From IMG/VR virus record IMGVR_UViG_3300036790_000044, positions 1 through 31,416 of that record: a stretch of 31,416 bases of DNA; one strand, given 5' to 3'. Source of the DNA: a virus. Under the pieces are notes generated by a model. The model was given only the letters and a program-made list of their open reading frames with translations. It did no database searches and was not told the DNA's origin. A program made the translations under genes and the position numbers. Below, piece by piece: positions 123 to 15,849 of the stretch (the stretch's first letter is position 1; every line of letters begins with the position of its first letter).

Positions 123-1628
123 TCAAGCGACTGCGGGTGCGGTCCTGGCATCTTTTTGTCCTATCATAGCTAACAACTGTGCTCTAGCGGCTACCAACCC
201 ATCGTATGAAAGGTCTTTCACTTTTACGGTGGTAGCGAAGTCGTACCCTAATTCAGCTTCGATCGGAATCTGTACATCTATACCATTGTGAAAAACAATA
301 CGACGGTCAAAACCAGCAACAGTAGCACAGAGACAATTCCATAAATCGTCAGGAGTGTCTCGTATATCATTAACAATGGAATCATGACCTTCTTGTACAA
401 TAAAGGAAGATTGGCAAAATTCGCTTCCCAGATGTGCGACCGCGAAGCCAGTATTATCCCCAACAACAGACTGAGGTATCCAACTATAAGCTTCGTTAAG
501 TATTTTGACATTATTGTCATTAGGACGGAGTCCGAGGAACTGGCGTTCACGATGGAAAGGAGTAACGAGCATTCGTGTGTCATATACTGTATCCTCGATG
601 TATTTGTGAAACACTCCATGAGTATTAGGCTCTAGTTTATTTAGAGCGAGTAGCATAGCTCCGCAGGTGTTAACTGGAATCCAGTAACCCTCACGAATTA
701 GAGACTCGGCCATTGTATTCTGTTTCATGCCATAATTATTAGCATGACCAGTTTTCTTACCAAGATAATACTCCATCGAATCTTTCCACTGTGTTTCCGT
801 CCTGCTAGATTCAGGTATGTTAAAGATAAACACGGCACGTTTAATATGCCGATTAACTCCATTCATCATGTCTGAAATAGCTTCGTGATTTAGCGCGAGC
901 GCGGATACTGGCCACTCTTCGGCACTTTTCTGATCGACCATGAGGAATATTCGACCGGGACGCGCAATAAGACTTTCTCTGAACAACTTAGCAACAGCAC
1001 CATGCTTTGGGAAGTTCTGCGCATTATTGCCATAGCTAAAGGTATGTTTCCGTGAGGCACGCCGACCCGTAAGTGTTCCCGCAACATTGTAACTAGAGAG
1101 GTAGAATACGTCGCCGCTTGCTGTTCTGTAGAAACGCGCGCCGAGATATGAAGAATCAAGTTTGGACAACTCCCTGATTGCAAGAATTGCCTGTATTGCT
1201 GGATCGCCAGATGGATAATTAAATTGGTTGTCGCGTAGTATTCTCTGTAGCGCAAGTTCGTTTGTACTATACTTACTCTCATACTCGCCCTCTTGGTTAC
1301 GTTTGCTGATCTTGGGCACAGTATAGCCCAGGCGTTGCAACATCTTGAGCAACGACTTTTCACCACTGGTACTGTTTAAATTGTAGGCATCGACTAAGTT
1401 GGGGTCATCTTTCTTTAGGCCCAAGTTAGGATTATTCCCTGCGCCTATGAACAGTTTAATGTTCCATTGATTAGCTGCTATGCCCATGTTACGTAGCAAT
1501 TCAGACTTGACAAAAGAACGAGCAGTTTTGATTTTAGCCATATCAATGCGAATACCACGATTTGCTATATCGTAGTAGATCGCTTGTAGCTTGTGTTCAT
1601 AGCTGCTCGTTATTCGTGCTTCGATCAT
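123..1628 (-). CDS. Family A DNA polymerase, polymerase-domain subunit (split gene, C-terminal half)
   Basis: This 501-residue protein matches the polymerase part of pol I-type enzymes. The start resembles the post-exonuclease linker (RGIRID at 24-29). The TGR motif is at 187-189 and QNFP at 204-207. Motif A is VDQKSAEEW with the metal-binding Asp at 232. Motif B is GKKTGHANNYGM at 290-301, with Lys291 as the expected nucleotide-binding lysine. Motif C is GHDS with Asp416. No exonuclease domain is present; it is encoded separately at 3223-4338. Two deviations stand out: His295 sits where Klenow has Phe762, and Ser417 replaces the usual Glu of HDE. The ATG overlaps the upstream stop as TAATG, so translation is probably coupled. 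It should act with the exonuclease protein as the phage replicase, which is an inference from the domain split. Confidence 0.9.
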   Translation of the reverse strand: MIEARITSSYEHKLQAIYYDIANRGIRIDMAKIKTARSFVKSELLRNMGIAANQWNIKLFIGAGNNPNLGLKKDDPNLVDAYNLNSTSGEKSLLKMLQRLGYTVPKISKRNQEGEYESKYSTNELALQRILRDNQFNYPSGDPAIQAILAIRELSKLDSSYLGARFYRTASGDVFYLSSYNVAGTLTGRRASRKHTFSYGNNAQNFPKHGAVAKLFRESLIARPGRIFLMVDQKSAEEWPVSALALNHEAISDMMNGVNRHIKRAVFIFNIPESSRTETQWKDSMEYYLGKKTGHANNYGMKQNTMAESLIREGYWIPVNTCGAMLLALNKLEPNTHGVFHKYIEDTVYDTRMLVTPFHRERQFLGLRPNDNNVKILNEAYSWIPQSVVGDNTGFAVAHLGSEFCQSSFIVQEGHDSIVNDIRDTPDDLWNCLCATVAGFDRRIVFHNGIDVQIPIEAELGYDFATTVKVKDLSYDGLVAARAQLLAMIGQKDARTAPAVA

Positions 1629-1839: not shown

Positions 1840-2607
1840 TTACCAGTAGATGATGTCAAAACTAAGTACGTTACACTGCATTAAACCACTAGAATTGGCC
1901 CCGTCGAGTTGGAAGTTAGGCAGAATTATTTGTTTAGTCCAACCCATAGGAGAGTCACTTATACCTTGACAAGTCGGAGCAAATGGGGTATAGACTCCAT
2001 CTTCTTCAACGCCGACGTAAATAACTTTGCCCGTAGTCAAGTTGCGCTGCGTGAAAATACGAATATGCTTCGGAGTGTTCTTCGGCCACAGCGTAGGATT
2101 GACCTTAATTGTGGACGGGTTCCAACCATAACCACCAGCCGATTTTAGCAGCGTGTACTCATAAGAATCAGAGTATTCGCTAGCTTGAACACATAGTAGA
2201 TACGTATCTCCCTTTGAGTCAACATGGTTGATGTCCATCTCGACGCAGGCTTGCTGTGTTGGATCGGGAAATTCATACGTGATGTCGTAGACATAATTTG
2301 CTACAGTATCAGGTACACTTGTAGCAACAGTCCTCGACCAACGAACGCCGCCTTTACCTGTCTGATTCGCTGAAAATAAACAGGCTTTGGTAGTAGCATC
2401 GTAGACCATCTTAATGTTAGTTGCAGTTCCAGGCGTGCCAGTATCTTTCTCCATCTTCCAGCTAGGAAGTGAGCAGATGTTAGCTACAGTAGTAGCATTG
2501 CCAGGAATGATCGGTGCTACAGGTTGCGGCGGCACTGGAACTGCGCCGGGAATAGTGTACTTGTTATTCATTGTATCTAGAAAGATACCGGATGCTGTAG
2601 TTGTCAT
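1840..2607 (-). CDS. Lectin-like (concanavalin A / laminin G fold candidate) beta-rich protein
   Basis: This 255-residue protein has a short Pro-rich N-terminal linker (about 18-36) followed by a beta-strand-rich domain. Its C-terminal pattern, NFQLDGANSSG followed about ten residues later by SFDIIYW, resembles jelly-roll carbohydrate-binding proteins, which I recall as frequent in Acidobacteria. There is no clear signal peptide and no catalytic motif I can name. The start overlaps the preceding gene as ATGA. Such a domain would be expected in a tail fibre or secreted protein, yet it sits between the two halves of the DNA polymerase in the replication operon. The fold call rests on pattern recognition alone. 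The alternative is an unrelated beta-sandwich protein. Confidence 0.6.
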   Translation of the reverse strand: MTTTASGIFLDTMNNKYTIPGAVPVPPQPVAPIIPGNATTVANICSLPSWKMEKDTGTPGTATNIKMVYDATTKACLFSANQTGKGGVRWSRTVATSVPDTVANYVYDITYEFPDPTQQACVEMDINHVDSKGDTYLLCVQASEYSDSYEYTLLKSAGGYGWNPSTIKVNPTLWPKNTPKHIRIFTQRNLTTGKVIYVGVEEDGVYTPFAPTCQGISDSPMGWTKQIILPNFQLDGANSSGLMQCNVLSFDIIYW

Positions 2608-2780
2608 TTCACCGTCCTTGTTAAATCTCGCAATTTAATCAACGCATTCGTAGCTTCAGTCAACGACGAACGCAGGGCTGGAGTACCTGCCATAATCGGG
2701 TGATCGTATACCCGGTTAATATGTTTCAGAGCCTCATGATAATGAGATTCTAATTCTTTTTCTTGTTCTGGGGTAATCAT
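2604..2780 (-). CDS. Hypothetical helical 58-residue protein
   Basis: This small, charged, mostly helical protein has no recognisable motif. I chose the ATG at 2780 because it overlaps the TGA of the HNH gene as ATGA. A TTG two codons further upstream is possible but less likely. Its own stop overlaps the start of the lectin-like gene in the same way, so it is embedded in a translationally coupled run. Function unknown. Confidence 0.6.
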   Translation of the reverse strand: MITPEQEKELESHYHEALKHINRVYDHPIMAGTPALRSSLTEATNALIKLRDLTRTVK

Positions 2781-3226
2781 TTCCAAGTTACCTGCCTTAT
2801 TATCTGTGAAACTGTGGCTTGAGATATACCGTAGCTAATAGCTAAATCACACTGGAGCTGGCCTTTATTATATTCATTTCTTATTTCATTAGCTATGGCT
2901 AGTGTGATTACAGGTACTCTACCACGTCTAATATTCTCTTTGTTTGTAACTGGTTCTAGATGATCCGGATTTACACAGTCACGATAACTACAAATTTCTT
3001 TCACATGATCCAAAAACTTTCCAGCTGGAATTTGTCCTTTATGTAATTCATAGATATATCTACTAGCTTGGATCATCTTAGGCTCTTGTGGTGATTTAAT
3101 CTTTCTGGAATAATTATAGTTACAAATCATACCATAACCACCACGTTTAGTACCGATCCATCTCCAGCAGCCTGTGACTACATCTACTACATAAAAATCA
3201 GTAATAGGCTTCCTTTTTCCACTCAT
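2777..3226 (-). CDS. HNH homing-type endonuclease with C-terminal helix-turn-helix
   Basis: This 149-residue protein follows the layout of phage HNH endonucleases: GCWRWIG at 19-25, GYGM at 30-33, the ASRYIYELHKGQIP segment at 54-67, LDHVKEIC at 72-79, CVNPDHLEPVT at 84-94 and ENIRRG at 97-102. The catalytic His is expected at 74, with Asn86 and His89. A C-terminal helix-turn-helix (about 109-147, SYGISQATVSQII) would read DNA sequence. The usual His of the aHR motif is Ser55 here. Its ATG overlaps the stop of the exonuclease gene. It lies exactly between the exonuclease and polymerase halves of the split polymerase, which suggests that its invasion led to the gene division. It could also be a free-standing homing endonuclease that arrived later. 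Confidence 0.92.
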   Translation of the reverse strand: MSGKRKPITDFYVVDVVTGCWRWIGTKRGGYGMICNYNYSRKIKSPQEPKMIQASRYIYELHKGQIPAGKFLDHVKEICSYRDCVNPDHLEPVTNKENIRRGRVPVITLAIANEIRNEYNKGQLQCDLAISYGISQATVSQIIRQVTWK

Positions 3227-5492: not shown

Positions 5493-6017
5493 CTACTTAT
5501 CGCCCCAATTCATATTTGTCGAATGTTGAATCTTGGGGAACTTCGTAGCGCAATCCGGAATAGCACACAAGAAACGAAGAATCCTGTTATTATCCTGTCC
5601 TTGATAGCTATTGATATATAGCTCCGCCTTGCATTCCTTATTCATCAGCGGACCTTGATACACCCAGGTGCTAGGATCATCGGCTTGAAACTTGACCTGA
5701 TCTGCATCCCAGATACCCGGTATACTAGCAGGTGAATCAGGATCGTTGGGGTCTTGTTCCATAATTTCTCCCAGAGCATGAACCATGTCCTGTAGCAAAG
5801 ACGGAACCTTTGCGCTACCAACGAAGAGATACTTCTCGACCTTGCCATCCCACTTTTGGCCAGGATCAATAATTGTGAACTGCGGATTGAAATTGACCGA
5901 TTCACCGTCTTTTGACTTCTTCGGCTTAAAGCCAGTCAAGCGTAGCGTGTAGATGTTTTGGGGAATTGGTTCAGGACGACGCAGTTTCTCTGCGTCCATG
6001 TTGTACTTAAATGGCAT
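5493..6017 (-). CDS. Candidate single-stranded DNA-binding protein (DUF669-like)
   Basis: This 174-residue protein starts with MPFKYNMDAE, followed by a beta-rich domain of the form 'Y-x-L-x-L-x-G-x-K-P-K-K-S-K-D-G'. That opening is typical of phage DUF669-like proteins, which are regarded as single-stranded DNA-binding or recombination accessory proteins. It is encoded directly after the Sak4/RecA-like ATPase and near a RecB-like nuclease, the usual neighbourhood for such a protein. A strong ribosome site (AAGGA) precedes the ATG and a strong terminator follows the stop, which would allow high expression, as expected of a coating protein. No classic acidic Phe-ending tail is visible. The family call is from pattern only. 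Confidence 0.6.
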   Translation of the reverse strand: MPFKYNMDAEKLRRPEPIPQNIYTLRLTGFKPKKSKDGESVNFNPQFTIIDPGQKWDGKVEKYLFVGSAKVPSLLQDMVHALGEIMEQDPNDPDSPASIPGIWDADQVKFQADDPSTWVYQGPLMNKECKAELYINSYQGQDNNRILRFLCAIPDCATKFPKIQHSTNMNWGDK

Positions 6018-6034: not shown

Positions 6035-6877
6035 TTACTGCGGTTTGTTAGCTGCGATAAACTTGTTGTGTTTGTTAAGCATCTCCGCTAGGTTAGGACT
6101 CTCGATAAGTTCAAGTCCCTTCAAAGTGGTAGCTGCGCTAAAATCCTTGGTTACGCGAGTCCAGACTTTGTACTGTCCGTTCGCATCGACTTTAATTCTC
6201 ATAACCTCATTAAATACGGAAAGCAACGTATTCAAATAAGGCGGGTCAACACCAATTTCACCTGTATAAACCGTTCGATCAGCGGTGGACAGAGTCTTAT
6301 CGACAATCGGGCGCTCGTGAAAAATAGCGATCAAGTGTCCTAAAGAACGAAGCTCCGCGATCGTATATAACATATAGTCTCGCACACCATTTATAGAATC
6401 CCAACCTTCTGGAATCCGAATTACATCTCCACCTGTTTTTACTTCTCTAAACATCTTAACTTTTCCAGACTTCATCTGGTCAAATATTTCATTCTCCATA
6501 ATCTTTTTCAAAAAACTCATAGAGTCCAGTACATAAGCCGCTGGAATAGGTTTATTGCTGATCTTGTTATATTTAAATCGTTCTATGTCCTTATCCAAAT
6601 TTTTCGCTGCCGTTGGAATTAACTGTGACGTATCTGTGTACGTCTTTCCCATCACATTGGGTCTACCTGCTACAGATGATAGTCTATCGTCGCAGTCAAA
6701 GAAATAAGTCGCACCCACAGCTTCAGCAATTGTAGCTGCTAGGTTAGACTTACCACTCTTAGGTGCGCCAACGATAGCCATACAGATTTTTTTAGTCGTG
6801 TCTATCTCTGTAGCGATGTTAACGCCCTGAATCCCGTCCAACATTTTGGACAGTTCTTCTTGTGATAGTACTGGCAT
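6035..6877 (-). CDS. RecA-like ATPase of the phage Sak4/AAA_24 type
   Basis: This 280-residue P-loop ATPase has Walker A GAPKSGKSN at 37-45 and a Walker B-like VLDSMSF at about 114-120. The short RecA-like core without RecA's DNA-binding extensions fits the Sak4 group of phage single-strand annealing/recombination ATPases. It would act on single-stranded DNA with the neighbouring DUF669-like protein (17 bases downstream) and the PD-(D/E)XK nuclease. The gene begins three bases after the upstream gene's stop. The alternative is a generic phage nucleotide-binding AAA_24 protein; both names are used for this family. Confidence 0.82.
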   Translation of the reverse strand: MPVLSQEELSKMLDGIQGVNIATEIDTTKKICMAIVGAPKSGKSNLAATIAEAVGATYFFDCDDRLSSVAGRPNVMGKTYTDTSQLIPTAAKNLDKDIERFKYNKISNKPIPAAYVLDSMSFLKKIMENEIFDQMKSGKVKMFREVKTGGDVIRIPEGWDSINGVRDYMLYTIAELRSLGHLIAIFHERPIVDKTLSTADRTVYTGEIGVDPPYLNTLLSVFNEVMRIKVDANGQYKVWTRVTKDFSAATTLKGLELIESPNLAEMLNKHNKFIAANKPQ

Positions 6878-7375: not shown

Positions 7376-8479
7376 TCAGTCCTTCCCCGCTGCTACAGCG
7401 GCTTGCTCTTTTTCATCCCGTGTTTCAGGATTCCAGACTGGTTTAATATCGTAGTCGTTATTCAAGACTACTAATTGATTCGCAGGGTCAGCGATTCTAT
7501 GCACCGGGAAGAATATACATTCCCTGTAGTATGTATTAGTGCAATGACTGGTATCGTACCAGAATGGAAGTGGCGGATCACTGAATAGACCCCACGTAGA
7601 ATTTAAAATATCTCTCACCGTGGCGATTTGACGTAAACGCCATTGCTCTAGCTCAGCGTCTGACTTATACAAAGGCACTCGTTTAAACTGACTCTGTAAG
7701 TCTTTAGCGCGGGCAACTTGAACATAATTCATCAGAATCATATTCGTCTTGCGAGCGAGCGGGTGCAACTTTAGAACGTCACGGACCATGTATTTAGATG
7801 CAAATACATAACCCGTCATTCCGTCTTGAATCATGTATCCCAGGTTTGGGTCTTTGCCTTTGAAATTCGAGCTAGTTTTATGGTCCAGCGGTCCAAGTGA
7901 AAACCCATTGTCGATAAGTAAATCTATTTTGCCACTGTAGAAAAGACGAAACGGTGCAGCACTTGTAGCTTCAAGCTGTAGGGGAACTTCTTTCCCTTTA
8001 CCGAAGTAAAGCTCTGTACCAATAACTCGCAGCCGCTCATTCTCAGTCGCGTACTTTGCAAAGTAGAAATTAATAAGCCACTGGAATCCTTCCAGTCCGC
8101 CCACGTTCTTATAGCCATCGGCTGCGGACCACGACTGGAAGCCCATCTCGTGCCACTGCTTAGTAGCGTATGCGATAGCCGTAGCTGCGGAAAAGTCGGG
8201 CGATCGAAAGTTAGTGTAATAATATTCCATAACTTTATGGAACAGAATACCAAAGTCAAGCGACCACGATCCAGTTCCAGCTGATCCTGCTGTAGCTTTT
8301 GGGCGTCTTCCATCTATCATCTCCAGTTTAAACTTAGCTGGGCAGCTTCTAAAAGTCGAAAGAGCGTGGTGATCCAGGTAGATTTCAATAACCCCGTCTT
8401 CCGCTATACGAATCCAGTGGAGTCTAGAGGCTAATGCTACACAGATGGCGAACTGTTCGTCGGTTAGGTAGTTTTTCAT
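7376..8479 (-). CDS. PD-(D/E)XK nuclease (RecB/Cas4-like)
   Basis: This 367-residue protein carries the RecB-family nuclease signature. The LSTFRSCPAKF segment includes Cys46. GILFHKV carries the conserved His81. TELYF has Glu156, GKIDLL has Asp186, and LDHKT provides Asp199 and Lys201. Two more cysteines near the C-terminus (HCTNTYYREC) together with Cys46 recall the iron-sulfur cluster of Cas4/AddB nucleases, though only three cysteines are obvious. Such phage enzymes trim DNA ends for recombination or replication. It sits four bases after an unknown 160-residue gene and one base before the 78-residue gene. A residual activity in DNA end repair with the Sak4 and DUF669-like proteins is the simplest reading. 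No helicase domain is fused. Confidence 0.85.
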   Translation of the reverse strand: MKNYLTDEQFAICVALASRLHWIRIAEDGVIEIYLDHHALSTFRSCPAKFKLEMIDGRRPKATAGSAGTGSWSLDFGILFHKVMEYYYTNFRSPDFSAATAIAYATKQWHEMGFQSWSAADGYKNVGGLEGFQWLINFYFAKYATENERLRVIGTELYFGKGKEVPLQLEATSAAPFRLFYSGKIDLLIDNGFSLGPLDHKTSSNFKGKDPNLGYMIQDGMTGYVFASKYMVRDVLKLHPLARKTNMILMNYVQVARAKDLQSQFKRVPLYKSDAELEQWRLRQIATVRDILNSTWGLFSDPPLPFWYDTSHCTNTYYRECIFFPVHRIADPANQLVVLNNDYDIKPVWNPETRDEKEQAAVAAGKD

Positions 8480-9197: not shown

Positions 9198-9647
9198 TTA
9201 AAACTTTTTATCTCTAACCTCTTCACCTAGCGCAACTACTGCATAAGCTAAATGCCAGATCATTCCAGCTATAGTTCCCTGTTCTTTAAAGCTTGGCGTA
9301 TTTTTAAGCCAGCCTTTTACTTCTTCAAGAGTGGTGGATTTTATCTGCGGAGTCATAGTAGCGTGGCGAGTATCTGGAGAATCTGGAATTTTTCGTATAC
9401 TCTGAGCTTGAGCTTGGTCACGTTCACTACAGCGAAACATCTTTTCATCGACTCCGCGTTGGATATAGAAATCCAACAAATCATCGGTTAGTAAACTCAA
9501 GTTGGGAAACGATATTGCATCTTTAATTTTATCCGTTTCCCGTTGTTGTTCTGCGCTAGGAATCGCACGCGCTGATTCTAAATTTGCCATATTTCCCCAC
9601 TCTTTTCTAGCTTTCGCTATTTGACCATCTGTTTTTTGCAAAGTCAT
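9198..9647 (-). CDS. Hypothetical 149-residue protein
   Basis: This mostly helical, charged protein has no recognised domain. The last 30 residues contain a hydrophobic helix (GMIWHLAYAVVALGEE) that looks amphipathic rather than a clear membrane anchor. Its ATG overlaps the stop of the Cys/His protein gene as ATGA. It is the last gene before the structured 8967-9197 region. Function unknown. Confidence 0.65.
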   Translation of the reverse strand: MTLQKTDGQIAKARKEWGNMANLESARAIPSAEQQRETDKIKDAISFPNLSLLTDDLLDFYIQRGVDEKMFRCSERDQAQAQSIRKIPDSPDTRHATMTPQIKSTTLEEVKGWLKNTPSFKEQGTIAGMIWHLAYAVVALGEEVRDKKF

Positions 9648-10363
9648 TTCTTACCTAACGCAGCTATCTGCTCTTTTGTAAGTCCTGCTTTAAGCAGTTG
9701 AGCAAGAGCTGCTGTAATGTCTGCCGTCTTTTTTTCCTGCCCCGTGCTAGAATCGCCGCTACTGGTAACTTTGACGGTTTTAACACGACGAACTGTACTT
9801 GATGTTGTACTAAATGTAGCACGGGCGCCTCCGCCCGTCTGGACAAGTGGATTGGCGGCAGTTCCCTCAAGTAAACTGCGCTGCTCGTTTCCGGCGACTT
9901 TTCCCTTATTGCGATTAACATGCGCTACTCTCCTGGCCTCACGCTCAGATAACATGCCATTAAGTATAGCACGATGGTATTCGATAGCATGATCCAACTC
10001 CAGATCGGACATTGTTGAAATCGCGCGATTGTGAAATAACCAGTGATTCCCGCTGAGAGTGATATGCCTAACACGATAGGACTTTTGACTTGTAACTTCT
10101 CCTCTAGCATTGTGGACTTCACGCAAGACTGATTCCTCAATGTCCACAACTTTAAAATCATTACAGCAATAGACACAATGTTGAGGGTCGAGAATAGAAG
10201 CGCCGTGTACACAATACAACTCCCCACAAGTTACGCACGTTCGGAACGTACCGATAACTTGTTCTGTTAAGTTAAGTTCTAAACAAGCTGTACAGACTTT
10301 ATCAGGAGGGAGTTGATTCTCGGAATCGGGGGATGTTGAAAGGCCGTCTACTATATCACTCAT
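9644..10363 (-). CDS. Cys/His-rich N-terminal domain protein with C-terminal helical tail
   Basis: This 239-residue protein begins with a probable two-zinc module: Cys24/Cys27, Cys43/Cys46, Cys51/His53 and Cys63/Cys66 (Cys67 also present). A helical middle (about 115-150) is followed by a Ser/Thr/Gly-rich linker. The protein ends in a compact helical tail, ITAALAQLLKAGLTKEQIAALG. The 196-residue protein at 13974-14564 has the same order: Cys/His module, helical middle, and tail with a K/A-G-x-T-K-x-Q pattern. The two may be distant paralogues. RING- or B-box-like zinc modules bind proteins, so an adaptor role is plausible but inferred. An AAGGA ribosome site lies upstream, 13 bases after the ribbon-helix-helix gene. 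Confidence 0.7.
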   Translation of the reverse strand: MSDIVDGLSTSPDSENQLPPDKVCTACLELNLTEQVIGTFRTCVTCGELYCVHGASILDPQHCVYCCNDFKVVDIEESVLREVHNARGEVTSQKSYRVRHITLSGNHWLFHNRAISTMSDLELDHAIEYHRAILNGMLSEREARRVAHVNRNKGKVAGNEQRSLLEGTAANPLVQTGGGARATFSTTSSTVRRVKTVKVTSSGDSSTGQEKKTADITAALAQLLKAGLTKEQIAALGKK

Positions 10364-10376
10364 CGAGTATTAGTCC

Positions 10377-10580
10377 TTATGCCAGTTTTTGCAGGTCGAG
10401 GTATTGCTCAAGTTCTGTCTTGAGTGAGGGCGGTAGCTCATCGTTAATTAACTTATTCAAGAAAAACCTGATAATGGCCCCGGACTTACCAGCATAACGA
10501 GCGGACGCTAGCACCGCGCCCTGAACTGGCGTTACGCGAATCGAGAGTGGAACGGGTGCTACTTTATCAAGTTTTGGCAT
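10377..10580 (-). CDS. Ribbon-helix-helix (CopG-like) DNA-binding protein
   Basis: This 67-residue protein has the expected RHH layout: a short beta strand PLSIRVTP (about 11-18), helix one VQGAVLASARYAG, the turn KSG, then helix two AIIRFFLNKLI, followed by a helical tail. Such proteins bind DNA as dimers, often as repressors of their own operon or of early phage promoters. A good ribosome site (AGGAGA) precedes the ATG; the start overlaps the end of the zinc-ribbon gene by 22 bases in another frame. It is a reasonable candidate for a regulator binding palindromes such as the one at 18061-18089, but nothing links them directly. Confidence 0.7.
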   Translation of the reverse strand: MPKLDKVAPVPLSIRVTPVQGAVLASARYAGKSGAIIRFFLNKLINDELPPSLKTELEQYLDLQKLA

Positions 10581-10950: not shown

Positions 10951-11211
10951 CTACTGCTGTAGCACGAAAAAATGCCAAACATAACTTCCGTCGATAACTG
11001 TATCAATGTGTTTCAAAGGCTCATCTGGTAACTCACGTCCAGTTCCTACTATTATAATGGTACGGTTTTCCATTGGTTGGTCAGGCTCAACTATAGCCCA
11101 CAATTCATAACTGAAATAATGTAATTTAATAGCTATTATTTCAGCGCCAGCGGGCATACCTATAGTTTCTCGCGAATACATTCCCAATGTATATTTATAA
11201 ATTGTTTTCAT
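10951..11211 (-). CDS. DUF7352-like small phage protein
   Basis: This 86-residue beta-rich protein has the pattern MKTIYKY..., MPAGAEIIAI, LWAIVEP, a GTGREL segment and an ending TVIDGSYVWHFFVLQ. I recall this pattern in a widespread small phage/bacterial family annotated DUF7352, of unknown function. Its ATG overlaps the FtsK-like gene's stop as ATGA and an AGGAG site precedes it. It ends the coupled cassette that starts at 12900. The family name is from memory and may be inexact, but the protein itself is convincing. Confidence 0.78.
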   Translation of the reverse strand: MKTIYKYTLGMYSRETIGMPAGAEIIAIKLHYFSYELWAIVEPDQPMENRTIIIVGTGRELPDEPLKHIDTVIDGSYVWHFFVLQQ

Positions 11212-12359
11212 AACGTCTCCTGTTCTACCATCATCTCCATAGCTTCCCTGATTTTCTTGTAATGAGTGACTACCCGCGCTATATCTTCCGTCCGAACAAA
11301 AGCTCCATGTCCTCTTTTGATGTCCGGGTTTTCAAATAGCTGATATAAATAGTCTCCCTTGCCAAGCAAATTTTGTGCGCCACCTTCGCCAAGAATAACG
11401 CGAGAATCAGCACTGGTAGGCAGCTTGAAGGAGAGACGCATCGGGAAATTAGCTTTGATGTCCCCAGATATAACTTCAACGGAAGGACGCTGAGTAGCAG
11501 CAATGACGTGTATACCAGCCGCTCGGGATATTTGAGTAAGTGTTTTAAGTTTCTGTTCGATTGTTTCACGTCCGTCGCGCTTCTTTCCTGTTCCGAAAGT
11601 TGATACATCTAAATCCATTACATCAGCCAGCTCGTCAATGACCAGTAGTTTATATTTCATCTGATCTTGATATTCTGTAATCGCATTCCACTCTCGAATG
11701 TTTCGTGCTAGTCCAGTCATCTGATCCGTACGCGAACGTACTAATTTAATGAGTGAGTCCAGCACTTGATGCACCTGCGTAATTTTAGTCATCACCGCTT
11801 TAACATGCGGGAGAGCCTGAAAGAGTGGAAGGTCTAGCTGTTTTGTATCGACTAGATATATGTCGATCTCAGATTCTTTCTTAGTGACTGCGATACCGCA
11901 AAGAATCTCTGCTAGGAACACTGACTTACCTCCGCCGGTGGTTCCTGCCATGAGCATGTGGGGTTGGTTAGCCAAGTCTATAGTAAACCACTGACCTGTA
12001 GTAGTCTGGCCCATCAGAAGTGGAATCGCAACGTCAACGGGACTTTTTAATACATTAGTAGCTAGCCATTGTAACGCGCTGTCGAATTTTATCAGCTCAG
12101 GATTCTGTAGCGGAATGGCGAACGCTATCTCGTTACGCTCACGAGTTATCATGCACGTATCAACACCACACGCGAATGATATATCTTCGCTGCGATTGAT
12201 AACTTTACTCAGCGGTGCATTAGCGCCGAGTTGCTGTTTAAAATAGTGAGTAGTAACTCGCGGGCCACGTTCAGTCCTGACGTGAGATACAGGAAAGCCG
12301 AGTCCAGCGCACTTGAGGATAATGAATCCTACATCTTTTTGAACATCGCTGTCTGTCAT
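11208..12359 (-). CDS. FtsK/SpoIIIE-type DNA translocase ATPase
   Basis: This 383-residue protein carries the FtsK/SpoIIIE motor core. Walker A is GTTGGGKS at 139-146 and Walker B is LLVIDE at 238-243. ATQRPSVEVISGDIKANFP at 288-306 and the DSRVILGEGGAQNLLGKGDYLY segment at 318-339 match the family almost word for word. There is no N-terminal membrane domain and no obvious C-terminal winged-helix gamma domain, so it is a minimal soluble motor. Known relatives pump double-stranded DNA in cell division, sporulation or conjugation. A packaging role is unlikely because a normal large terminase is present; a role in genome entry, segregation or replication is possible. It is coupled to small genes on both sides (ATGA overlaps). 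Confidence 0.92.
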   Translation of the reverse strand: MTDSDVQKDVGFIILKCAGLGFPVSHVRTERGPRVTTHYFKQQLGANAPLSKVINRSEDISFACGVDTCMITRERNEIAFAIPLQNPELIKFDSALQWLATNVLKSPVDVAIPLLMGQTTTGQWFTIDLANQPHMLMAGTTGGGKSVFLAEILCGIAVTKKESEIDIYLVDTKQLDLPLFQALPHVKAVMTKITQVHQVLDSLIKLVRSRTDQMTGLARNIREWNAITEYQDQMKYKLLVIDELADVMDLDVSTFGTGKKRDGRETIEQKLKTLTQISRAAGIHVIAATQRPSVEVISGDIKANFPMRLSFKLPTSADSRVILGEGGAQNLLGKGDYLYQLFENPDIKRGHGAFVRTEDIARVVTHYKKIREAMEMMVEQETL

Positions 12360-12526
12360 TGCATTTTCCTAGCCTGTTCTATAATTTCTCTGTTAGTATC
12401 TAACAACCGTGAAACTAAGTGCGCTGTGTTGCTACTGTTAACAAACTGACCAATCAGTAAATTAGCAGTTGCCATCACAACATTATTCTGCGCTACCTGT
12501 GCTAGCATCCATTTCTCTTCTGTCAT
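12356..12526 (-). CDS. Small helical protein upstream of the FtsK-like gene (56 residues)
   Basis: This short frame exactly fills the gap between two annotated genes, with ATGA overlaps at both ends (12523-12526 and 12356-12359). The product is a helical protein of 56 residues with hydrophobic patches and a charged C-terminus. No domain is recognised. The double coupling strongly supports it. It could be an accessory to the FtsK-like motor, which is inference from position. Confidence 0.72.
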   Translation of the reverse strand: MTEEKWMLAQVAQNNVVMATANLLIGQFVNSSNTAHLVSRLLDTNREIIEQARKMQ

Positions 12527-12732
12527 AATTCAACCTTCGAGAATTTATTGGAGTTACGAATGGCCCTGCGAATCTGTGCATTCTCCTCGTGTCTAGCGTG
12601 AGCCTGCATTGCTAGCTTCTTCATCTGTACTACAAGCCAGCGGTTTAGTTGCTCTTGATTCTTGATTAACTTGCCGTCAAGAATTAAATCGCATTCGCGT
12701 ATTACGTGTTTCGGTTCACTAGCGATTGGCAT
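12523..12732 (-). CDS. Small charged helical protein (69 residues)
   Basis: This small, basic, helical protein has no recognised motif. AGGAG lies eight bases before its ATG, and the upstream gene's TAG is directly adjacent. Its stop overlaps the next start as ATGA. It is part of the coupled run leading to the FtsK-like gene. Function unknown; the many Arg/Lys residues in the second half would permit nucleic acid contact. Confidence 0.68.
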   Translation of the reverse strand: MPIASEPKHVIRECDLILDGKLIKNQEQLNRWLVVQMKKLAMQAHARHEENAQIRRAIRNSNKFSKVEL

Positions 12733-12900
12733 CTAATCTCCTATCTCGTTATAGAAATATTTTACAATTGCCTCTAATTCATGTGGCTTTATCCAAACTA
12801 CATCGACCTGTTTGTTAACAGTCTCAGTAATTAACAGGTTTCCCTCATCGACTGTTGCATCTAGCGTCCGATCTAGCTCCTGTTTGAAATTGATTCGCAT
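12733..12900 (-). CDS. Small hypothetical protein (55 residues)
   Basis: This short frame starts at an ATG with a good GAGGG site six bases upstream and ends in TAG immediately before the next ATG. It encodes a mixed alpha/beta, acidic protein with no recognised motif. Its strong ribosome site and its position just after the 12927-12950 hairpin suggest it is the first gene of the coupled FtsK cassette. Confidence 0.68.
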   Translation of the reverse strand: MRINFKQELDRTLDATVDEGNLLITETVNKQVDVVWIKPHELEAIVKYFYNEIGD

Positions 12901-12926
12901 AATTCCCTCTTCGAGTATTACAGACT

Positions 12927-12950
12927 CAGACTCCCCTCGGGGAGTGGCTG
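12927..12950. other. Compact hairpin in the short gap before the FtsK cassette
   Basis: ACTCCC at 12930-12935 and GGGAGT at 12940-12945 form a perfect six-pair stem with a CTCG loop. CAG/CTG pairs can extend it across a small bulge. No T-run follows on the minus strand, so it is not a standard terminator. It may be an RNA processing or stability element at the border between the VWA genes and the FtsK cassette. Confidence 0.5.
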
Positions 12951-12951
12951 G

Positions 12952-13149
12952 TTACCTGTGGTTGGTTACGAAAGAATCCCACAACGCATCTCGCGCTATA
13001 CCATAACCGAAACAGCATGAAAACCAGCCTAGATGTAAGTATCCCAGACCATCTGCTAACTTGAATGCTGGCCAGAGCCATTGCAAATTAATATCGACCC
13101 AGATTGTAAGTCTGGGTCCGGTGCGCCTAATTGGCCTTCGTTCATTCAT
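12952..13149 (-). CDS. Small hydrophobic hypothetical protein (65 residues)
   Basis: The ATG overlaps the stop of the VWA gene (ATGA). The first 15 residues are basic (five Arg). The remainder is rich in Trp, Phe, Leu and Gly (about 18-55), suggesting association with a membrane. No motif is recognised. Because the frame lies in a gap of the right size and is coupled to the VWA gene, it is probably real. Whether it is a true membrane protein cannot be settled by eye. Confidence 0.55.
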   Translation of the reverse strand: MNERRPIRRTGPRLTIWVDINLQWLWPAFKLADGLGYLHLGWFSCCFGYGIARDALWDSFVTNHR

Positions 13150-13973
13150 ACGCGCCCACTTTCCAGCGCGCTCTTAAAGCTAGCATCCATGAGTAACAGG
13201 CGCTTACCCTTGCTCAGGTATTTGAATCCATGTTTAAATGAGCACTTGCCTTTCTCGAAGACGATGAAGATACCGCCCGTCTCGACTGCTAGGCGCTCCA
13301 TGATGACGTAGGCAGGTTGCTCTTTCGTGTAGTTGGCGTTCGCTATGAAGCAGGTGTCCAGCGGGATACCAGCCATTTTAGCCTTAGCGATAACCTGCTC
13401 CAGACCATTGAAGTATCCATCTGGTTCGCCGTCTGAAAAGACAATCATGCGGGTCGGCCTGACTCCCTCGGATAACTCAGCCTCTATAGCCTGATACAAT
13501 GGCGTGCTACCAGAAGCGTGCAAGCTAGCTACATCTGCCGCGTGCTGAGGCAAGTTGCAGCTATATGGGAGAATCTTGTTTCCAGCTGCATACATGGTAT
13601 CAGCATTGATCGGATGAATCTTCACTGCCGTTTCATTAGGCACGCACTCGCGCATAAATTCCGTTATGCCCGCGCGCGCGTCTGCTATCTTTTGCCCGCT
13701 CATGCTACTGGAATCGTCAGCTACGATACAGACACGTTCTGTAGCTTGATCGACCGTTGCAAACTTAAAATCGTCTACAGCCTTTTGGATGTTGTTGTTC
13801 TTGATTAGTTGCGAGCGCTCGCCATCACTCAGTTCAGAAACGTCAACGCTAGCTAGCGCTTCTTCCGTGGATTCGCCTTTTGCTCTAGCGTCGCGTGCTG
13901 CTAGCTTCGCAGCAAAACTACCTGACGGCGCTGCTGTCTTTGGGTCCAGTGGATTAAACTTCTTATCTGCCAT
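13146..13973 (-). CDS. Von Willebrand factor A (VWA) domain protein with intact MIDAS
   Basis: This 275-residue protein has a disordered N-terminus (about 1-60) and a VWA domain (about 78-255). The metal-ion-dependent adhesion site is complete: DDSSS (Asp86, Ser88, Ser90) in VCIVADDSSSMSGQK, Thr157 in SGSTPLYQ and Asp181 in VFSDGEPDG. The domain is closest in style to soluble bacterial VWA proteins such as TerY, which bind partner proteins through a divalent metal. The gene starts just after a Cys/His protein and a J-domain protein and is coupled to a small hydrophobic protein. No MoxR-type ATPase, its frequent partner, is seen. A scaffold or chaperone-like role during infection is inferred only from the domain set. 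Confidence 0.9.
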   Translation of the reverse strand: MADKKFNPLDPKTAAPSGSFAAKLAARDARAKGESTEEALASVDVSELSDGERSQLIKNNNIQKAVDDFKFATVDQATERVCIVADDSSSMSGQKIADARAGITEFMRECVPNETAVKIHPINADTMYAAGNKILPYSCNLPQHAADVASLHASGSTPLYQAIEAELSEGVRPTRMIVFSDGEPDGYFNGLEQVIAKAKMAGIPLDTCFIANANYTKEQPAYVIMERLAVETGGIFIVFEKGKCSFKHGFKYLSKGKRLLLMDASFKSALESGRV

Positions 13974-14564
13974 TTATTTCACCTTTCTTACTTGCTGAGT
14001 TAGTTGCTGTTTCGTAACTTGGCCCTTTGCTACCATGTCTGACAGTAGCGTAATAGCTTGCTGTATCTTAGCCTGACGTTTAGCATCTGCCGCGTCTTTG
14101 CGTGCTTCTTTCTTTACATCTTTGATAAATGCCGATTGCCCAAACGGTATAGTATGCGGTGATCCAGGCATCACTGGCGAGCGCCTATGAATACCTTGCA
14201 TCTCGGCGCTATAGACCATGCGCCGTTCCAGTTCGCGGGAGATACGTTTCAGTTCAGCGAATAGTCTAGACTTGCGCATGACTAAGCGCATCTCGGGAAT
14301 AGTCCGCAACTGTTCTTCAGAGTAAGCGGAGAATCCTTTCTCTGTCTCGTCATCTTCCATTCCGAAGAGTGTACTGTCAACGCTCGCAGCCTCTAGCACG
14401 GTCGGCCTACGCTTCAGTGTGTCATCTTCATACTGAGCGGCCAGATGCTCACACAGATGGTCCTCACAGTAGCGCTTGCCGTGCAGCTTACAGAAGTACA
14501 GTCCTTCATTCATGCAAGCCGGTTCCAGTGATGCTTCACAGTGTCTATAGAGTAGGCTCGACAT
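13974..14564 (-). CDS. Cys/His-rich N-terminal domain protein with helical tail (partner candidate of the VWA protein)
   Basis: This 196-residue protein opens with a dense Cys/His cluster: His8, Cys9, Cys17, Cys25, His28, Cys33, His36, Cys38 and His40, in the style of a small zinc finger. A helical region (about 75-115) and a long charged coiled-coil-like stretch (about 145-170) follow. It ends in a helical tail, ITLLSDMVAKGQVTKQQLTQQV. The layout parallels the 9644-10363 protein. A strong GGAGGG site precedes the ATG. Its start lies inside the end of the J-domain gene, and its stop is directly before the VWA ATG. Likely an adaptor in the same assembly; inferred from context. Confidence 0.7.
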   Translation of the reverse strand: MSSLLYRHCEASLEPACMNEGLYFCKLHGKRYCEDHLCEHLAAQYEDDTLKRRPTVLEAASVDSTLFGMEDDETEKGFSAYSEEQLRTIPEMRLVMRKSRLFAELKRISRELERRMVYSAEMQGIHRRSPVMPGSPHTIPFGQSAFIKDVKKEARKDAADAKRQAKIQQAITLLSDMVAKGQVTKQQLTQQVRKVK

Positions 14565-15150
14565 ATTCCCTCCATAGCTGCGTCAACGTGGACATCTTAG
14601 ACCCGTCACCATTATTCCTATCTGGGTGCCACTTGAGCGCTGCAACCTTGAATAGCTTTTTTGCCGTGCTACGATCCCTCGGGATGCTATCAAATGAGGG
14701 AAGCGCTAGCAGTTCGGCGAGCGTATCTCTGTCTGTCTTAGTAACTGCAACCTTCTCGATTACTTGATTGAAGTTGTTGAAGAATCCCGCCGCTGCCGTA
14801 TTATCCGGTTGCTTTACATAAGTTCGCGGTCGGTTCATGTTTTGGTATGCATCGTCACTCATGAACGATTGCCAGAGAGCATCTGTAGCATACGAGACTA
14901 ACTCGAAGACAGGCGCACCGTTGTCAAAGAACTTCTTAACTTTCTCCCAGTACTCGGAGTCGATCATCCACGTCTTAACGGTAGCATCCCATCTGCGCTT
15001 GCCAGCGGGAATCTGATTCACTGCCGAGACAGCTAACGCAAAGTGTTGTTTGTTTGGGATTGACTGATTAGGCCGCGACTGCGACCCGCTAAAGTGCAGC
15101 GTGGTGACTCCGAAACTATCAACGCAGTAATGAACGTACACATTTGCCAT
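14545..15150 (-). CDS. J-domain (DnaJ-like) protein
   Basis: This 201-residue protein has a C-terminal J domain (about 145-201): AKKLFKVAALKWHPDRN contains the diagnostic His-Pro-Asp that triggers Hsp70 ATPase. The N-terminal 90 residues contain RRWDATVKTWMID followed by WEKVKKFF, a pattern also seen in small DNA-helicase accessory (HARP-like) domains; that resemblance is tentative. J proteins recruit host DnaK to a client. Here the client would be chosen by the N-terminal part, the nearby VWA protein or the Cys/His protein. The order (J domain at the C-terminus) is inverted relative to canonical DnaJ and there is no Gly/Phe or zinc-finger region. Confidence 0.87.
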   Translation of the reverse strand: MANVYVHYCVDSFGVTTLHFSGSQSRPNQSIPNKQHFALAVSAVNQIPAGKRRWDATVKTWMIDSEYWEKVKKFFDNGAPVFELVSYATDALWQSFMSDDAYQNMNRPRTYVKQPDNTAAAGFFNNFNQVIEKVAVTKTDRDTLAELLALPSFDSIPRDRSTAKKLFKVAALKWHPDRNNGDGSKMSTLTQLWREYVEPTL

Positions 15151-15315: not shown

Positions 15316-15849
15316 TTACTGCGCCGCATCTCCCATTGCGGAGATCATAGCACTGATCTGCGCTTCGCTAAGACCCGACATACGCAGCATCTTCACTGCG
15401 CGCTCAGATGGGCTAAGGTTGCGCCGCTTTGTCTCTTCATTCAGAAGATCGGAAGGATTGTAAACTTCCTCAGCGAAGACAAACTCAGGTGAACCATCGT
15501 CATTGGTTTCCGTGAGCTTCGCCGTTAGCTTCTGACTGAGCTTCTGTGACAGACCACGGTTGAAGATGTTAACGCGCTCATCTTCATCGGGAATGATCTG
15601 CGCAAACCCATCAACAGTTCCTGCACGCTGGACAATAACAGACTGTTCGGCTTGGCGTTTGAAACCTAGCTTATCCATCTCTTCATCTGTCTTATCGGTT
15701 GGCGCGGAGACAATCTTAACTTCCCAATCTGTCTTGTTCGCGTCCTTAGCGTTCGGAGTGCCCTTGACGTAACGGCGATAGACAACATTATCGGCCTTTA
15801 CGCTAACTGCGGCTTGCGACTGATCGGTTGTTACGGCTGTGGTGGTCAT
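15316..15849 (-). CDS. Hypothetical 177-residue protein with C-terminal helical tail
   Basis: The N-terminal 25 residues are Thr/Ala/Gln-rich and flexible; the middle is beta-rich and charged. The C-terminus, SERAVKMLRMSGLSEAQISAMISAMG, is a helix-turn-helix tail like those ending the two Cys/His proteins (9644 and 13974 genes). The ATG is preceded by GAGTCAAC. A terminator follows the stop, so this gene is likely expressed strongly and separately from the downstream cluster. No domain is recognised. The shared tail suggests a common binding partner, which is inference. Confidence 0.68.
   Translation of the reverse strand: MTTTAVTTDQSQAAVSVKADNVVYRRYVKGTPNAKDANKTDWEVKIVSAPTDKTDEEMDKLGFKRQAEQSVIVQRAGTVDGFAQIIPDEDERVNIFNRGLSQKLSQKLTAKLTETNDDGSPEFVFAEEVYNPSDLLNEETKRRNLSPSERAVKMLRMSGLSEAQISAMISAMGDAAQ

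Follow-up and report, generated by a model that had tools for sequence, protein, structure and literature searches.

A J-domain, VWA, zinc-protein and FtsK-motor gene set forms a core early-region module of uncultured podovirus-like phages

What might a phage do with a J-domain protein, Cys/His-rich proteins, a VWA protein and a double-stranded DNA motor encoded side by side? This question is raised by a 31,416-base virus contig (IMG/VR record IMGVR_UViG_3300036790_000044, positions 1 to 31,416; this whole stretch is referred to as the window), in which late genes occupy the plus strand and the early region the minus strand. A first-pass annotation had placed coupled genes for these proteins, together with several tiny ones, at 11208–15150. 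All four named genes (J, the Cys/His protein Zn1, VWA with a complete metal ion-dependent adhesion site (MIDAS), and FtsK) were indeed found on the minus strand, in open reading frames (ORFs) that mostly touch or overlap by 4 nt: J overlaps Zn1, which abuts VWA, and the chain from VWA to FtsK proceeds by touching ends, 4-nt overlaps or small gaps. These coordinates proved too narrow, however, as the conserved set begins with p15316 (15849) and reaches the SSB-like gene (5493) or beyond. The resulting module is a core feature of a diverse, uncultured group of podovirus-like phages, and its genes in the window are:

15316..15849 (−): p15316, 177 aa, first gene of the conserved set; C-terminal helical-hairpin tail resembling that of Zn2; 46% identical to its orthologue in the related genome G001
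14545..15150 (−): J protein, 201 aa; N-terminal beta-beta-alpha-beta-beta-alpha domain and C-terminal J domain
13974..14564 (−): Zn1, accessory Cys/His protein, 196 aa; architecture resembling Zn2
13146..13973 (−): VWA protein, 275 aa; full MIDAS (D86xS88xS90, T157, D181) and a conserved C-terminal KYL...R..L element
12356..13149 (−): coupled tiny ORFs of 65, 55, 69 and 56 aa in the VWA–FtsK interval (from the ORF list)
11208..12359 (−): FtsK-type motor, 383 aa; alpha and beta domains only, Walker A GKS 144–146, Walker B DE 242–243
9644..10363 (−): Zn2, 239 aa; invariant Cys cluster
7376..8479 (−): Cas4/RecB-family PD-(D/E)XK nuclease; PF12705, E=1.3e-13
6035..6877 (−): Sak4-like RecA-fold ATPase (AAA_24); PF13479, E=5e-6, slightly under the curated cut-off; Walker A invariant
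5493..6017 (−): SSB-like protein, conserved neighbour of Sak4; 47% identical to G001, no Pfam match, named from context and sequence

Single-sequence searches with VWA, J and FtsK returned few or no relatives, and the family was reached via profiles. G001 (50,445 bases) is probably near complete, because both contig ends fall within late genes; it and the almost identical G002 share the gene order of the window, with protein identities of 26–79% and a single exception at 89%. A J profile built from two lineages recovered 23 loci, 22 of which carry J–VWA–FtsK–Zn2 and, where the contig extends, p15316 and the Cas4-type nuclease, Sak4, SSB-like and exonuclease genes. The remaining match, on a 308-kb contig (L049), lacks the module and was rejected as unrelated. 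A VWA profile (11 members) yielded 78 loci, of which 77 were analysed. In all of them the order p15316–J–VWA–FtsK–Zn2–Cas4–Sak4–SSB–exonuclease–PolA is constant where visible: VWA is followed by FtsK in 77 loci, FtsK by Zn2 in 73, Zn2 by Cas4 in 67 and J by VWA in 66, while p15316 lies directly upstream of J in 61, and loci without a given pair start or end close to a contig end. The sole departures from this order are additional Zn2-like copies between J and VWA in two loci (L070 and L116), and no fusion joining module genes was found among the VWA-profile loci. The core comprises p15316, J, VWA, FtsK, Zn2, the nuclease, Sak4 and the SSB-like protein. Outside it are Zn1, detected only in the window, G001, G002, L065/L066 and L096, and the tiny ORFs, which show no detectable conservation between the window and G001; small ORFs between module genes are freely replaced among loci.

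The anticipated co-conservation across phages was thus borne out, with a fixed order wherever visible in 77–78 environmental contigs. Since VWA- and J-anchored scans return the same set, the genes do not occur independently of each other, and their co-occurrence exceeds chance. Loci were located via VWA or J only, so relatives without both would escape detection, and co-occurrence partly reflects common descent, as all loci come from related phages. The group is nevertheless diverse, its VWA proteins forming 47 clusters at 95% identity and 21 at 60%, with median protein identities across the group of only 24–45%. By tblastn, 50,697 phage records yielded no homologue of J, VWA or Zn2 (the J query gave short matches only, E 0.3 or worse). 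Bacterial and archaeal genome contigs scanned for VWA gave generic VWAs only (27–29% identity), and phages related through their major capsid (Caulobacter RW, Roseobacter CRP-902, Alcaligenes QDWS535, DSL-LC04 and Planktothrix Pag-Yong1) lack module genes in the stretches searched. For FtsK, cultured phages encode distant relatives (about 31% identical; PHROG 1358, E=2.4e-70). One of these, Mycobacterium phage Thibault gp178 (PHROG 1358), is likewise an FtsK-like motor and sits near a Ku-like gene, but unlike in the module, no J, VWA or Zn2 is annotated among its flanking genes. In line with the first-pass annotation, which knew of no described phage system of such composition, no paper describing a J/VWA/FtsK/zinc set was found in the open literature (subscription papers not covered), making the composition new to the resources searched.

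The J protein carries a genuine J domain. Taken alone, the window sequence is sub-threshold against Pfam DnaJ (E=0.0071), but this family is matched by 10 of 10 aligned relatives, and the J family profile matches the J domain of Sis1 (E=2.9e-9). An AlphaFold2 model contains the three J helices at a predicted local distance difference test score (pLDDT) of about 82–94, the remainder of the model being poor, and its top Foldseek match, at modest E-values, is the polyomavirus T-antigen J domain (1faf; prob 1.00, E=0.048). The HPD motif (residues 175–177), lying between helices II and III, is invariant in all 41 non-redundant J sequences (residue conservation was counted throughout on non-redundant sets, up to 90% identity), and judging from these features, recruitment of host Hsp70 would be the expected role. 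The N-terminal domain has an invariant Trp (W61, in a KTW motif); a likeness to the HARP-type W-x-x-x-x-K-x-W pattern was backed by no Pfam match and was dropped. In one relative, a separate copy of this domain (L047:4859–5089, on the same contig as L069) adjoins the full J gene.

The window VWA protein, too, falls under the Pfam cut-off on its own, whereas its G001 orthologue exceeds it (VWA_2, 6.3e-8). Its MIDAS follows the DxSxS...T...D pattern, with D86/S88/S90/T157/D181 invariant in 38–39 of 38–39 sequences. In several relatives the VWA and FtsK frames, not adjacent in the window, overlap or touch, suggesting coupled translation there. The motor itself matches PF01580 (E=1.7e-25), and its residues 12–380 align to 98–464 of the FtsK alpha-beta structure 2iuu (E=3.3e-49). 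With 383 aa aligned end to end with the alpha-beta module, there is room for neither N-terminal membrane segments nor a gamma domain; the protein is therefore an alpha-beta motor lacking the membrane segments and C-terminal gamma domain of the full FtsK/SpoIIIE architecture. Its GKS and DE motifs are invariant (34/34). The nuclease residues H81, D186, D199xK201 and Y224 are likewise invariant across relatives; of the four iron-sulphur Cys expected of a Cas4-type enzyme, Cys 46/313/321 are conserved and the fourth was not seen in the window nuclease.

Zn2 retains Cys 27/43/46/51 in 32 of 32 sequences and Cys 63/66 in 32 of 33. Its model, of low confidence (mean pLDDT 61.6), comprises a zinc region, a beta hairpin, a long helix, a disordered linker and a C-terminal helical hairpin, and a fold search with it gave no match. 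Although no family matches Zn1, its Cys/His pattern can reasonably be taken to mark a zinc protein. The extra Zn2-like paralogues between J and VWA (L070:6246–6743 and L116:9122–9592) are devoid of the Cys cluster and perhaps replace Zn1. When profiles of the C-terminal 35 residues were compared across 24 families (276 pairs), Zn2–p15316 (24.9) and Zn1–Zn2 (24.3) ranked first and second (third, 20.8), and both pairs were again on top with broader alignments of 12 families. From their sequences, the three tails may represent a common docking element. Matches of p15316 to designed proteins were discounted as probable helix-composition artefacts. At median identities as low as those of this group, near-invariance of the HPD, MIDAS, Walker, Cys and nuclease residues reads as a sign of preserved activity.

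Downstream, the early region continues with further DNA-processing genes, and a small gene precedes Zn2:

10377..10580 (−): 67-aa protein, ribbon-helix-helix-like by eye; 47% identical to a G001 ORF across 49 aa
3223..4338 (−): UDG-superfamily-like N-terminal domain (PF03167, E=0.0012, sub-threshold) and DEDD-type proofreading-exonuclease-like domain
123..1628 (−): family A DNA polymerase domain (PolA); PF00476, E=3e-11

In the UDG/exonuclease-like protein the acidic residues D207, E209, D280 and D349 are invariant, and its gene is separate from that of the polymerase. Sequence inspection revealed small genes of similar appearance to the 67-aa ORF upstream of Zn2 in relatives. The gap between the exonuclease and PolA genes holds a 255-aa protein (1840–2607, minus strand) that matches neither a family nor any cultured phage and that only G001 shares among the loci; the two copies are 89% identical (82% at the DNA level) against 59–63% for the neighbours, so that this gene looks recently exchanged. 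An HNH endonuclease (2777–3226, minus strand) lies in the same gap, and HNH genes at the matching place in relatives (e.g. L031, L034) suggest an insertion hotspot. Elsewhere in the early region of relatives, L007:10904–11686 (30904–31689 in G001) encodes a protein whose CXXCXGXG zinc fingers are of the DnaJ type (PF00684, E=6e-4, sub-threshold) and one end of which appears GroES-like by eye, for which a small GroES profile gave no confirmation; the window ends before the corresponding place.

Which process could such a set serve? Among 31 genomes, distances among nine proteins correlate at 0.76–0.96, as expected from block inheritance. After removal of this common signal, partial co-variation was strongest for FtsK–Cas4 (0.47, bootstrap 0.30–0.63), followed by Zn2–Sak4 (0.46, bootstrap 0.27–0.60), and weak for J–VWA (0.24) and VWA–FtsK (0.22), whose bootstrap intervals touch zero. 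FtsK and Cas4 are not adjacent, Zn2 lying between them, so simple linkage does not account for their co-variation. The composition of the set is secure; its mechanism, meaning all physical contacts, motor–nuclease coupling, the use of DnaK and the biological step, is what we infer from it. The set combines a soluble double-stranded DNA pump, whose family forms hexamers, with a nuclease that appears active, a RecA-fold recombinase and an SSB-like protein. This leads us to propose DNA-end processing, and the gene order, the intact nuclease and recombinase and the FtsK–Cas4 co-variation favour a HerA–NurA-like motor. Our foremost, though tentative, reading is thus a HerA–NurA-like DNA-end-processing module for recombination-dependent replication, with VWA and zinc adaptors and J-recruited DnaK. 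A soluble FtsK ring would pump phage DNA and deliver its ends to the Cas4/RecB-type nuclease, whose output would be single strands that Sak4 and the SSB-like protein use in recombination-dependent replication. The VWA protein, via its MIDAS metal site, and the hairpin-tailed Zn2, p15316 and optional Zn1 may couple or load the motor, a step modelled on Rea1/Mdn1, ring ATPases for which MIDAS domains hold substrates (PMC6624252, PMC8837202). The J protein, finally, would bring in host DnaK, which would either load this nucleoprotein assembly or take it apart.

In archaea and Deinococcus, ends are resected by NurA together with HerA, a hexamer of the FtsK family (PMC9960219, PMC12977600). As in that system, the gene for a hexameric double-stranded DNA motor of the FtsK/HerA family lies near nuclease and recombination genes. 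In contrast to it, the module has extra VWA, J and zinc proteins, its motor is of FtsK alpha-beta rather than HerA architecture, and its nuclease is of the Cas4/RecB PD-(D/E)XK type (PF12705), so that the likeness is one of working, not of membership. This substitution for NurA also counts against the end-processing proposal itself, as do the weak or absent family matches behind the names Sak4 and SSB, the possibility that co-inheritance of the whole early region stems from common descent alone, and the nature of the FtsK–Cas4 co-variation, which is a correlation on related genomes.

Two other readings appear possible but doubtful. In one, the set is a chaperone-controlled DNA motor without a described counterpart, in which the FtsK ring would be joined to DNA ends via the MIDAS-VWA protein and hairpin-tailed zinc adaptors, its assembly or disassembly being driven by host Hsp70 and J. 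The other, equally doubtful, dispenses with resection: J/DnaK, VWA and the zinc adaptors would strip or rearrange replication initiator complexes, while FtsK segregates or deproteinises replicating phage DNA. DnaJ and DnaK remodel lambda O–P complexes, and T-antigen J domains serve polyomavirus DNA replication. Replication genes are linked to the module in all loci, and the T-antigen domain (1faf), the top fold match of J, is likewise a viral J domain in a DNA-replication context, although the J domain of the module forms the C-terminal part of a separate 201-aa protein and is joined to another partner domain. The positive J–VWA and VWA–FtsK co-variation would fit such remodelling, but with intervals touching zero, and FtsK co-varies best with the nuclease.

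Anti-defence or host takeover, in which, at an early stage of infection, the set would disable nucleoprotein, restriction or chromosome functions of the host, is improbable. The early-region location would suit it, defence systems often contain FtsK/HerA motors and VWA proteins (PMC11090510, PMC11291478), and FtsK scores against the PADLOC SspH and Mad8 models. These scores were judged generic motor similarity, however, VWA, J, Zn1 and Zn2 have no PADLOC match, and anti-defence genes are usually patchy, whereas the module is present in every member in invariant order. The TerY-linked comparison made in the first-pass annotation also fell away. Like the TerY-P triad of CoCoNuT and Ter systems (PMC11090510), the module combines a VWA whose MIDAS is complete with nearby zinc-binding proteins, but it has a single soluble FtsK motor, its zinc proteins are not kinase-fused ribbons, and it is a phage core module rather than a defence island. 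The TerY-P partners, a PP2C phosphatase and a Ser/Thr kinase, were not found among the operon proteins scanned, Zn1 is accessory, and the universal zinc protein, Zn2, lies outside the region first outlined; a TerY-P reading is disfavoured.

Operon hitch-hiking, by which unrelated early functions are merely kept together by block inheritance, is still less probable: the high whole-region distance correlations agree with it, but J, VWA, FtsK and Zn2 stay together without loss or rearrangement wherever visible, even as the intervening small ORFs turn over, and Zn2, p15316 and Zn1 share hairpin tails. The late genes of the window bear on the remaining alternative:

late genes (+): terminase, SU10-type portal (PF23899) and Mu-gpT/Phage_capsid_4-type major capsid

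Least likely, and disfavoured, is virion assembly or packaging by a VWA co-chaperone and host Hsp70. A helper role in assembly has been proposed for VWA and J proteins of other viruses (PMC7824862), and other virus lineages package DNA with FtsK-family motors. Against this reading, the phages have a conventional terminase and portal, the G001 proteins examined included no recognisable MoxR-type AAA+, and the module is grouped with replication genes, facing away from the terminase, portal and capsid genes on the other strand. MoxR–VWA chaperone pairs, its closest model, have been proposed in jumbo phages (group 2.2) and reported in Acidianus two-tailed virus (PMC7824862). They resemble the module in that a VWA stands beside an ATPase, and group 2.2 jumbo phages also have DnaJ proteins, but here the neighbouring ATPase is FtsK-type rather than MoxR AAA+ (with no MoxR recognised in the G001 gene list), a metallopeptidase is lacking and linkage is to DNA-processing genes.

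Part of the original suggestion, a chaperone-assisted assembly acting on DNA, therefore stands: the set is co-conserved, very likely acts on DNA and includes a real J domain. None of the roles offered with it (anti-defence, DNA entry or segregation) is favoured; linkage to nuclease, recombinase, SSB-like and polymerase genes points instead to DNA-end processing and recombination-dependent replication. Zn2, p15316, J and VWA of the module have no family assignment that explains these proteins. If the end-processing proposal is true, these phages would combine a double-stranded DNA motor and a nuclease under host Hsp70 control, and MIDAS-VWA proteins would gain a role in DNA processing.

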